Of a DNA stretch of 64,000 nt, positions 18,843 to 53,835 are shown piece by piece; position 1 is the first letter of the stretch; each line of letters opens with the position of its first letter. A program made the position numbers and the translations under genes. Below the pieces are notes generated by a model. That model saw nothing but the letters and a program-made list of their open reading frames with translations. It did no database searches and was not told where the DNA came from. Origin of the DNA: Cytospora piceicola (taxonomy: Eukaryota; Ascomycota; Sordariomycetes; Diaporthales; Cytosporaceae); the NCBI GenBank assembly GCA_023375675.1, contig JALQBC010000005.1:682001-746000 (forward strand), written 5' to 3'.

Positions 18843-21800
18843 ATGCCGAAGAACGATGATGACGGCTTTGAGGCCCTCCTGGAGCCATTCTACAATGGCA
18901 AGAAGCTCACCGATCCCATCTCCACCAAGGATGACAAGTACCAGCTTCTGCCCGCCTTCTTGAAGGTCAAAGGTGAGCTCGCGTTGGCTTTAGACAAAAC
19001 CCGCCGCGTCGACATGCTGATTTGCTCTTTTAGGTCTCGTCAAGCAGCACATCGACTCCTACAATTACTTCGTCGACCATGACATCAAAGAAATCGTCAA
19101 GGCGAACCGCATCATTCGAAGCGAAGTCGACAGCAGCTTCTACCTCGAGTTCCTCGATATCCGAGTCGATAGACCCTCCCGAGGAGATGCCGGCCAATCC
19201 TTCAAGGCGAAGAACAATGTCACGCCCATGGAGTGCCGACTGCGAGACATGACATACGCCGCCCCGATCATAATCGATATTGCCTACATTCGCGACAAGA
19301 AGAAGATCATTCGGAGAAATGTCCCCCTCGGTCGCATGCCGATCATGCTCAAGAGCTCAAAGTGTGGCTTGGCCGGGGCTACAAACCGCCAGATGGAGTT
19401 CATGAACGAGTGCCCCTTGGATCCAGGTGGCTACTTTATCATCGGTGGAACTGAAAAGGTCATTTTGATCCAGGAACAGCTCAGCAAGAATCGAGTGATT
19501 GTTGAGGCCGACGAGAAGAAGGAGCTGATACAGGCGTCCGTCACGAGTTCGACACACGAGAGAAAATCCAAGACGTACGTGATCTTGAAGAAGGACCGCA
19601 TCGTCCTCCGGCACAACGTACTTGTAGAGGATATACCGATTGCCATCATCCTGAAAGCTTTCGGTGGCCTCTCAGACTATGAGATCATGCAGCTTGTAGC
19701 TGGACCCGACGGGCGCTACCAGGACGACTTCGCCCTTAACTTTGACGAGGCGACCAAGGTTGGTGTTTTCACACAGCAGCAGGCTCTCGAGTACATCGGC
19801 TCTCGTGTCAGGATGGGCTCCAAGGGCAGGCCCCAGTTCGGTCCTGCGCCTCGGCGGAACAACGTTGAAGAGGGTCTGGACGCGCTCGCCAACATCATCC
19901 TTGCCCATGTTACCATCGAGGACCTGGACTTCTACCCCAAAGCAATCTACATTGCGATGATGACCCGAAGGGTATTGATGGCTTCTCATGACCCGAAGTT
20001 GGTCGACGACCGCGATTTCGTGGGCAACAAGCGGCTCGAGTTGGCTGGCCAAATGCTTTCGCTGCTATTCGAAGATCTTTTCAAGAGTTTCCTTACTAAC
20101 TTGAGGATGAACATTGACAAAGTACTCAAGAAACCGAACAAAGCTATTCCCTTTGATCCGTTGACGTCGATCAGTGGAACAGGAGGCCATATCACGCAAG
20201 GCATGAACCGCGCAATTCAGTCCGGAAACTGGAGTGTCAAGCGTTTCAACATGAACCGAGCAGGTGTCACTCACGTTCTGAGTCGACTGAGTTATATTGC
20301 CGCGCTTGGAATGATGACTCGAGTTAGCAGTCAGTTCGAGAAGACGCGTAAAGTGTCCGGTCCCAGAGCTCTTCAGCCATCACAATGGGGAATGTTGTGT
20401 ACTTCAGACACACCCGAAGGAGAGGCTTGTGGTTTGGTCAAGAACCTGGCTTTAATGACGCACATCACGACCGAAGTAGACGAGAAACCCGTCAAGAAGT
20501 TCATACTGACCATGGATTCGAACGTCGAGCCGATTCGCAACTTCTCTGGCTCAGAGATGCACAAACCAGATGCATATATCATTTCCATCAACGGAACACC
20601 CTTCGCGTTGACCCACTTCCCCAAACGATTCGCTGCCAAGTTCAGAACCATGCGACGACGTGGATACATCAATCCGTTTGTGAGCATCAACGTCAATTCT
20701 CATTTCAATACGATATTCATCGCAACAGATGAAGGCCGGGTGTGCCGTCCATACATCATCGTCAAGGATGCTGTCTCAAGGTTGCAACCTGAACACCTCA
20801 GATTGTTGCAGCTAGGCCAGATCGGTTTCGACGACTTCCTTCGCCGTGGTGTTGTTGAGTACCTTGATGTCAACGAGGAGAACGATGCACTCATTGCTCT
20901 GTACGATGCGGACATCACGAAGAGCACGACCCACGTCGAGATTGAGCCCTTTACCATCCTTGGTGCCGTGGCTGGTCTCATTCCATTCCCTCACCACAAC
21001 CAGTCCCCCAGAAACACCTACCAATGTGCTATGGGTAAACAAGCTATTGGTGCTATTGCGTATAATCAGTTCAACCGGATTGATACCCTGCTATACACGT
21101 TGGTCTACCCACAACGGCCCATGGTCATCTCAAAAACCATCGAGCTCACGAGTTACGATAAATTACCGGCCGGACACAATGCGACTGTGGTGGTTATGTC
21201 CTTCTCCGGGTACGATATTGAAGATGCGTTGGTCCTTAACAAAGCTTCTTGCGACCGTGGCTTTGGAAGGTGTCAAGCTTTCCGGAAGTATACCTCAGAA
21301 TTGCAGAGATACCCTAATGGGGCGGCAGAGAGGATTGGCCAGCCGGAGACAGACCCGAACACCAAGCAGAAGATTGCCAAGCACGAAGTGCTGGACAACG
21401 ATGGTCTTGCTAGAGTCGGCTGGCAAGTTCACAACGGAGAGACGATGGTCAAGAAGGAAACGCCACTGGACACGGGAGCAAATATCGGAGGCACCGAGAG
21501 GACTAACGATTTCCGAGATACGTCCATCAACTACCGTATTCCAGACCCTGCGTACATTGACAAGGTCATGGTCACGCAGACGGAGAGGGATACGGTCCTC
21601 GTCAAGGTCCAGACGCGACAGACCCGTCGTCCAGAGCTTGGTGACAAGTTCTCATCTCGTCACGGACAGAAAGGTGTTGTGGGCATCATTGTCGACCAGG
21701 AGGATCTTCCATTTAGCGACTCAGGACTCGTCCCCGATATTATCATGAACCCTCATGGTTTCCCATCTCGTATGACAGTCGGCAAGTTGCTCGAATGCCT

Positions 21801-22377
21801 GACAGGAAAGGCCTCCATCGTGCACGGACGAAAGAAGTATGGCTACGGTGACGCCTTCCGATCTCACCCAGTTGAGGAGGTCAGCAAGGTCCTCGTTGAC
21901 CACGGCTTCTCGTGGGAGGGCAAAGACTACTTCACATCCGGTATCACAGGCGAGCCACTGGAGGCGTACATCTTCAACGGCCCTATCTTCTACCAGCGAC
22001 TGAAGCACATGGTGCAGGACAAGATGCACTCCCGAGCGAGAGGGCCAAGGGCCATCCTGACCAGGCAGCCAACAGAGGGTCGTTCGCGTGATGGTGGTCT
22101 CCGTCTGGGAGAAATGGAGCGTGATTGCTTAATTGCCTACGGCGCGTCGCAACTGCTGCTGGAACGTCTGATGCACAGCTCCGATGGAACGAGCATTGAC
22201 ATTTGCCAGCAGTGTGGCCTCTTTGGTTACAGAGGATACTGCCAGACGTGCAAGAGCACGAGAGAGGTGACGCAGATGACGATGCCGTATGCGGCGAAGC
22301 TGTTGGTGCAGGAGCTCATCTCGATGAACGTGGGGGTGAGGCTGCAGATGGAGGATGAGTTCCCTCACCCTAGGTAA
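18843..22377 (+). CDS. RPC2: RNA polymerase III second-largest subunit
   Basis: Exons 18843-18972 and 19034-22377 give 1157 residues, close to yeast Rpc128. The 61-nt intron restores LKVK|GLVKQHIDSYNYFVDHDI. Segments diagnostic of Pol III rather than Pol I or II include CRLRDMTYAAPI, GRMPIMLKSSKC, ECPLDPGGYFIIGGTEKVI, LCTSDTPEGEACGLVKNLALM and PHHNQSPRNTYQCAMGKQA. GYDIEDALVLNK and GDKFSSRHGQKGVVG are the conserved active-centre and hybrid-binding blocks. The C-terminal zinc module CQQCGLFGYRGYCQTC is intact. It forms the beta-like half of the nuclear enzyme that makes tRNA, 5S rRNA and U6. The tRNA-Trp gene at 53697-53835 would be one of its templates. Confidence 0.97.
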
Positions 22378-53265: not shown

Positions 53266-53696
53266 GCGGGGACAAACGGAGAGGTGGTTCGACACGGTCT
53301 TGGTTGCGGGCCGACACTGGCAAATGGTCTCGGGGAGGGTTCCCTCTTGTTGGTCATGTCAGCGCTTCCGATGGACAGCCGCCTGAGAGTTGAGCCGTGA
53401 GCTATTCTATTGCCCATTTGCCAGGAAAGACGTGCGGCTTCCTACAGCAAATGTGAAGCCTATGATCGATATAAGGCACCGATCTGACAACAGACCCTGC
53501 GAATCTGGAATACGTCCAATACGCTCGATAACCGCACGCGTGGCCTATAAGCAAACAAAAGGCTGCGTACCTGCCTGGGCACAGCATGGCAGACACGCTA
53601 GATGGGCGAGAGTAACTGGCTCTCAGGATGACAGAACCAGAGGGGCAAAGCAGATGGGCAATAGAAGGCCGAGGGAAAGAAGCAAAAAAAGAATTC
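53266..53696. other. Spacer downstream of DUF3245-like gene
   Basis: No gene. The right end contains the seven-T terminator of the minus-strand tRNA (A7 at 53684-53690 on the + strand). Confidence 0.6.
53684..53690 (-). terminator. Pol III T7 terminator of tRNA-Trp
   Basis: Seven T on the transcribed (minus) sense, starting six bases after the discriminator base. Confidence 0.8.
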
Positions 53697-53835
53697 TGAG
53701 GGACAGGTGACTTGAACACCTAACCTTCGGGATATTCCTCGACTGGAATCCGACGCGCTACCCTAGTTCAGGGGTCAGTGACTGGTGTTTATGCAAATGT
53801 CGATGTCGAGGATGCTTACATTGCGCCAGCCCCCC
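53697..53835 (-). tRNA. tRNA-Trp (CCA) with two introns
   Basis: The mature parts, in order on the minus strand, are 53835-53820, 53762-53743 and 53732-53697. Acceptor GGGGGGC pairs with GTCCCTC in all seven positions (two G-U). D-arm GCGC/GCGC with loop AATGGTA; anticodon loop TTCCAG plus T; T-arm AGGTG/CACCT with loop TTCAAGT; discriminator A. This matches eukaryotic tRNA-Trp (GGCGCAATGGTAGCGCG). The anticodon stem has one A-C mismatch (31-39). Intron 53742-53733 (10 nt) is at the canonical 37/38 site and can pair GGAA with the anticodon-side TTCC. A second insertion, 53819-53763 (57 nt), interrupts the D-loop after position 16; it starts GTAAGC and ends CTAG with CACTGAC before it. Confidence 0.82.
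53763..53819 (-). other. 57-nt GT-AG insertion in the tRNA-Trp D-loop
   Basis: Donor GTAAGC, branch-like CACTGAC 11 nt before the last four bases, acceptor CTAG; length typical of this genome's mRNA introns. Removal restores TGGCGCAATGGTAGCGCG exactly. It splits the internal Pol III A box between its eighth and ninth bases or so. Confidence 0.75.

Follow-up and report, generated by a model that had tools for sequence, protein, structure and literature searches.

A tRNA-Trp gene of Cytospora piceicola with a spliceosomal-type insert in the D loop and a canonical intron in the anticodon loop

Anatomy of the interrupted gene

Cytospora is a genus of tree-canker fungi in the order Diaporthales. 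The window analyzed here is a 64-kb stretch of the C. piceicola genome (G000:C47:682001-746000), and the genome searched for comparison comprised 43.6 Mb in 99 contigs. The SEY1 protein encoded in the window shares 94% identity with its Cytospora mali counterpart and 95% with an unnamed protein. At 53697-53835 on the minus strand the window holds a tRNA-Trp(CCA) gene of 139 nt with two intervening sequences. Its parts are as follows, all coordinates being those of the window.

53820-53835, minus strand: 5' exon, 16 nt; positions 1-17, with the 5' strand of the acceptor stem, the 5' strand of the D stem and the start of the D loop
53763-53819, minus strand: D-loop insert, 57 nt, between positions 17 and 18; GTAAGC...CACTGAC...CTAG
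53774-53780, minus strand: CACTGAC, resembling a branch site; the A at 53775, 12 nt upstream of the insert's 3' end, is the presumed branch point
53743-53762, minus strand: middle exon, 20 nt; remainder of the D arm, anticodon arm, CCA anticodon and G37
53733-53742, minus strand: canonical 37/38 intron, 10 nt; adjoins the anticodon-intron helix predicted for the precursor lacking the D-loop insert
53697-53732, minus strand: 3' exon, 36 nt; 3' strand of the anticodon stem, variable loop, T arm, 3' strand of the acceptor stem and discriminator A
53817-53828, minus strand: A box (positions 8-19 as in the DNA); TGGCGCAATG intact, last base changed from G to T by the insert
53709-53717, minus strand: B-box core GTTCAAGTC, 111 nt from the start of the A box
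53684-53690, minus strand: T7 run, Pol III terminator, after GAATTC

The interrupted gene is a real feature, and the elements previously described for it are confirmed. The first-pass annotation had reported a 57-nt GTAAGC...CTAG insertion with CACTGAC in the D loop and a second, canonical 10-nt intron in the anticodon loop; both are present, the latter at 53733-53742. In the 72-nt mature RNA obtained by taking out both introns, the acceptor stem forms 7 of 7 pairs (two of them G-U) and the T stem 5 of 5, as had been claimed along with the T7 terminator. The D stem is likewise complete (4 of 4), and the anticodon stem has 4 of 5 pairs, which brings the stems to 20 paired of 21, with A31.C39, a mismatch that the first-pass annotation had left unmentioned, as the sole unpaired position. 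The cloverleaf, the CCA anticodon and the discriminator A are all present once both introns are removed.

A cytochrome P450 gene lies on one side of it, along with an ORF that has no Pfam match, and an HSF-type gene on the other; the P450 and HSF-type genes are both no more than 4 kb away. Elsewhere in the window, positions 19024-22374 (plus strand) hold a gene encoding the second-largest RNA polymerase III subunit (RPC2, 5fj8_B, is its best PDB match); its distance of 31 kb from the interrupted tRNA-Trp gene is presumably a coincidence.

Searches with tRNA software and models

ARAGORN with default settings called no tRNA in the 64-kb window, and no Rfam model, RF00005 included, matched in the window at the gathering score. 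When introns were allowed, as the first-pass annotation had proposed for a tRNA scan, ARAGORN called tRNA-Trp(CCA) over exactly these 139 nt, with a single 58-nt intron wrongly placed at position 30. The interrupted gene is absent from the 58 genome-wide matches to the tRNA family (RF00005). Three intact tRNA-Trp genes, described below, are missing from the same set, so the 58 matches are an incomplete count. A genome search with a concatenated query of 25 tRNA genes, in which 40 of 65 candidates received a score, gave 42 matches, comprising 41 full-length genes and one match of 20 nt; as the window gene itself was unlisted there, this search is hardly informative on other interrupted tRNAs. 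The junction pattern CTGACN{3,20}AGGGTAGNGC was matched by the window copy only (one match, against eight in the control), with no further insert at that tRNA junction. A like gene was also sought in two collections of viral and prokaryote contigs with no match in either (0 and 0), a result that carries little weight because of what these collections contain.

Other tRNA-Trp genes and the evolution of their stems

Four places in the genome match the pattern AGCGCGTNNGAYTCCAG exactly, namely the window gene and C5:480871 (plus strand), C44:169638 (minus strand) and C68:409734 (plus strand). Each of the three others is a tRNA-Trp gene whose D arm is uninterrupted, and their anticodon-loop introns measure 12, 13 and 31 nt. 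With up to two mismatches the pattern occurred at 110 places, versus 114 in the control; nine of the 110 were inspected (the four exact ones, all four with one mismatch and one with two), and among these only the four exact ones were tRNAs. The tRNA-Trp total is at least four (the interrupted gene and three intact ones), more diverged genes being possible, and the count of other tRNA-Trp(CCA) genes that had been proposed earlier as a check thus comes to at least three, all without the insert. Since the three others lack it, the 57-nt insert is special to the window copy among the tRNA-Trp genes found, and with three intact genes the cell does not rely on the window copy alone. The first 15 nt of the window copy are identical in the C5 and C68 genes, which, together with the rarity of the intron signals (below), argues that the feature is not due to chance.

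Between any two of the four mature sequences, 5 to 15 of the 72 positions are different. For the window copy the number is 13 of 72 against the C5 gene (four pairs changed on both sides), 15 of 72 against the C44 gene (five such pairs) and 12 of 72, 10 of them in stems, against the C68 gene (again five such pairs), and no pair is broken in any of these comparisons. When 10 changes were placed randomly in the stems of the C68 gene, no pair was broken in 4 of 200,000 trials. Over the four genes, 7 of the 21 pairs have changed on both sides, a number that none of 500 shuffles and no slid version attained; a second covariation measure, based on further pair types, was matched by 22 of 500 shuffles, with only four sequences entering the comparison. 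Because pairs have changed on both sides and none has been broken, the window copy was evidently a functional tRNA through a large part of its past. At the level of sequence, the comparison shows that the tRNA fold has been under selection since the split from the C68 gene, and this compensated stem evolution may predate the insert.

The A31.C39 position is unpaired in all four tRNA-Trp genes. As an observation in its own right, these genes (window 53697-53835, L067, L068 and L070) combine the common A31.C39 mismatch with very different T stems, and such divergence together with a shared mismatch seems unusual among the isodecoder genes of one genome.

Intron signals of the D-loop insert

The insert has a donor of the form GTRAGY, a branch of the form RCTRAC and a YAG acceptor at normal spacing, and its branch CACTGAC also fits RCTRAY within 6-36 nt of the acceptor. 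For fungal U3 introns, an excerpt of PMC5832005 gives an RCTRAY branch, a YAG acceptor and a branch-acceptor distance of 6-36 nt; nearly two thirds of the donors there are GTRWGT, and almost all others are one mismatch off (PMC5832005, same excerpt). The donor GTAAGC, the branch CACTGAC and the acceptor CTAG of the insert conform to these patterns. The frequency of such signals was estimated with intron criteria that were set after the insert had been seen (GTRAGY, CTRAY 6-36 nt from the end, and YAG), applied to 266,042 segments of 57 nt from both strands of the window and of fetched loci, some of which overlap. A GT start and an AG end were shared by 1,083 of the 266,042 segments; donor, branch and acceptor occurred together in two, of which the insert is one and the sole one with RCTRAC. 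Removal of the insert restores the paralogue D-loop sequence AAYGGYA, in agreement with the earlier claim that it rebuilds the D arm of tRNA-Trp.

In the window's protein genes, 13 predicted introns, chosen partly by such motifs, measure 51-121 nt, compared with 57 nt for the insert; six of them begin with a GTRAGY donor, and a YAG acceptor is present in all 13. A crude count of intron motifs in the window gave 33 versus 34 in the reversed sequence, hence no overall excess, and GTRAGY donors numbered 17 versus at least 4 in the reversed-sequence control. Membership of an introner (mobile intron) family was considered and rejected, the insert having one match in the genome, in a search by which diverged copies could be missed.

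Endonuclease test and folding

The insert lies at 17/18 and hence not at the canonical 37/38 position, which is where the separate 10-nt intron sits. No bulge-helix-bulge was found at the insert junctions with 3-nt bulges, a 4-bp centre and junctions shifted by up to 3 nt. The best registers had 3 of 4 centre pairs and 0-1 of 3 inner pairs, with no full 4-bp centre helix.

Without the D-loop insert, the minimum-energy fold of the precursor is a pre-tRNA cloverleaf in which the anticodon loop is paired to the 10-nt intron. The minimum-energy fold of the complete 139-nt RNA is not this cloverleaf and is no better than those of shuffles (z -0.57). For the 72-nt mature RNA, the minimum-energy fold is an alternative that lies within about 1 kcal/mol of the cloverleaf, so fold energies alone prove little. 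In a deletion-and-fold scan, all 57-nt deletions from gene offsets 14-22 led to the same cloverleaf, and shorter deletions gave lower energies with an extended D arm. Folding therefore leaves the exact junction unfixed; it is the D-loop sequence of the paralogues and the GT-AG borders that fix it.

Promoter and terminator

The first-pass annotation had regarded the split of the A box as a puzzle for recognition by Pol III. With G as the first base of the insert, the A box is hardly split: TGGCGCAATG is whole and only G19 is changed, to T, which makes the puzzle smaller than claimed. GG is found at the end of the A box in 30 of 30 intact tRNA genes compared, a set that contains neither the genes of contig C65 (presumed mitochondrial) nor near-identical copies nor the tRNA-like L010 and L026. 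Of these two, L010 (C57:598078-598149) is a tRNA-like gene and L026 (C82:64643-64714), near a contig end, is likely its relative; by eye their differences are mostly C-to-T and G-to-A, like those of repeat-induced point mutation.

The distance from the start of the A box to the B-box core is 111 nt in the interrupted tRNA-Trp gene, 98 nt in tRNA-Ser(CGA) L017, 91 nt in tRNA-Thr(CGT) L011 and 56 nt in the C5 tRNA-Trp gene, L017 and L011 being intron-bearing tRNA genes of the same genome. No TTTT occurs inside the 139-nt gene. The elements of a type 2 Pol III gene are thus a B box and a T7 run, both present, and an A box with its last base changed. With the A box nearly intact, this A-to-B spacing and no internal TTTT, transcription by Pol III is plausible, perhaps at a weaker level.

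U6 and other small RNA genes

U6 is a Pol III product, and its precursor in S. pombe is reportedly spliced by the pre-mRNA machinery; Canzler et al. are said to have described, in 2016, spliceosomal introns in fungal U6 snRNA genes. A U6 family search of the present genome found two genes, an uninterrupted one on contig C63 and one on contig C68 with two inserts (L065, G000:C68:682185-682353, minus strand). The first insert (GTAAGT...TACTAAT...AAG, 53 nt) lies 3' of the 5' stem-loop and ends in AAG, not YAG. The second (GTAGGT...TACTGAC...CAG, 60 nt) is flanked by GAGAAGAT and TAGCATGG. With the inserts removed, the C68 gene is a normal-looking U6. Within its introns, the first carries a tRNA A-box-like TGGCTCAACCGT and the second a B-box-like GAGTTCAAGTC, and they look as if they bore Pol III promoter elements.

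The SRP RNA gene (274 nt, against a 293-position model) gave an end-to-end match with no large insert, as did the two U3 genes (279 nt each, against a 274-position model). The former is on the same contig as the interrupted tRNA-Trp gene, about 54 kb away (G000:C47:789411-789684, plus strand). An excerpt of PMC5832005 treats fungal U3 introns as normal spliceosomal introns, direct proof being limited to S. cerevisiae and N. crassa, and names U3 and U6 as the sole small structured RNAs in which, as of 2017, an intron was known to be frequent.

Comparison with known introns

Like fungal U6 introns, the insert resembles a short GT-AG intron with a branch site in a small structured Pol III RNA, and this genome also has one U6 gene with introns and one without. 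Unlike them, it is hosted by a tRNA rather than a spliceosomal RNA, and the host also bears an endonuclease intron. The introns of fungal U3 snoRNA are likewise normal spliceosomal introns in a small structured RNA, with some genomes having both interrupted and uninterrupted paralogues (PMC5832005, in excerpt), whereas the host here is a tRNA and the two U3 genes of this genome lack an insert. Ectopic tRNA introns of C. merolae, nucleomorphs and archaea share the D-arm position and the presence of two introns per gene, as given in excerpts of PMC3978253 and PMC4090602. They differ in that they are attributed to the endonuclease by a bulge-helix-bulge or, in nucleomorphs, have a removal left unexplained (excerpt of PMC4090602); spliceosomal signals are present here and no bulge-helix-bulge was found. 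Among canonical nuclear introns at 37/38 the 10-nt intron is one, and the 57-nt insert, situated elsewhere, is of another kind.

In an excerpt of PMC8450103, eukaryotic tRNA genes are described as limited to one intron. Searches of a collection of open-licence papers turned up no spliceosomal intron in a tRNA gene, which is weak evidence as most subscription papers lie outside it, and the excerpts of papers on nucleomorph genomes and intron classes (PMC4494063, PMC4035089, PMC11782384) mention none.

Interpretation and alternatives

A spliceosomal origin was one of three options offered by the first-pass annotation, and it is now favoured by intron signals beyond chance, the U6 introns of the same genome and the compensated stem changes. 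The locus is probably a Pol III tRNA gene with a spliceosomal intron, which the spliceosome would remove before the endonuclease takes the anticodon intron. Under this explanation, a tRNA-Trp(CCA) gene would have gained a U2-type spliceosomal intron between D-loop positions 17 and 18; Pol III would transcribe the 139 nt via the A and B boxes up to the T7 run, and the spliceosome would excise the 57-nt insert, as is reported for the fission yeast U6 precursor. The resulting 82-nt precursor is predicted to fold as a normal pre-tRNA with an anticodon-intron helix, from which the tRNA endonuclease and ligase would afterwards take out the 10-nt intron, with spliceosome first and endonuclease second as the presumed order, and the mature tRNA would be used in translation. 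Judged from sequence, spliced removal of the insert and use of the tRNA are likely. That two unrelated machines would act in turn on one nuclear tRNA, the spliceosome on the D loop and then the tRNA endonuclease on the anticodon intron, is favoured more narrowly. Against this explanation count the dispensability of the window copy, given three intact tRNA-Trp genes; the change of G19 to T in the A box, where 30 of 30 compared genes have G; and the finding of no other insert at the tRNA junction and of no large insert in the SRP RNA gene or either U3 gene.

The main rival to a spliceosome-processed tRNA gene is a silenced copy, that is, a spare tRNA-Trp gene recently entered by a real spliceosomal intron, whose transcription or processing fails and whose decay is starting. 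This is unlikely, while still the alternative that deserves most weight. The three intact paralogues and the altered G19 of the A box would suit it, and an excerpt of PMC4090602 takes insertions in D or T arms, which in eukaryotes mostly affect a single member of a large set of synonymous tRNA genes, as presumed marks of pseudogenes. Several uninterrupted tRNA-Trp genes elsewhere were one half of what, in the first-pass annotation, would make this a disrupted pseudogene, the other half being a lack of spliced RNA; three such genes do exist. No decay is seen beyond the insert. All stem pairs are formed except A31.C39, which is unpaired in all four genes, and the canonical intron, its pairing and the terminator are intact.

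The remaining alternatives are improbable to increasing degrees. The insert could be the intron of a Pol II read-through transcript, spliced into a product that is not used as a tRNA, and the intergenic setting, with the P450 and HSF-type genes within 4 kb, would allow this; its junction, however, restores the D loop of a tRNA, and the T7 run follows directly. A random insertion that resembles an intron by luck, in what would then be a pseudogene, is less probable again: it would fit a single case with three intact paralogues, but the signals occur in 2 of 266,042 segments including the insert, a chance on the order of 1 in 100,000 even with two junction registers. Least probable is cleavage by the tRNA endonuclease at a second, D-loop site, as in red algae and nucleomorphs. 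Cyanidioschyzon merolae does have D-loop introns with a bulge-helix-bulge (excerpt of PMC3978253), and D-arm introns have been reported from nucleomorphs (excerpt of PMC4090602). In the present gene there is no full 4-bp centre helix within 3 nt of the junctions, and the donor, branch and acceptor signals would have to be coincidence. This option of the first-pass annotation is left unsupported by the lack of a bulge-helix-bulge at the junctions.

Implications

The introns of tRNA and of mRNA are held to be removed by separate machines acting on separate RNAs. If the spliceosomal explanation is true, maturation of tRNA-Trp from the window copy would need both RNA-splicing machines, and its output would depend on splicing. 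The spliceosome would then act on a Pol III pre-tRNA, so that the border between the two splicing machines would not be absolute, and splicing would be possible on a Pol III transcript that is strongly folded and lacks a Pol II cap. For the gain of introns by structured RNAs, the gene would be a small test case provided by nature. Taken with the twice-interrupted U6 gene, it would mean that Pol III small-RNA genes of this fungus are open to acquiring spliceosomal introns, reverse splicing being one conceivable route.
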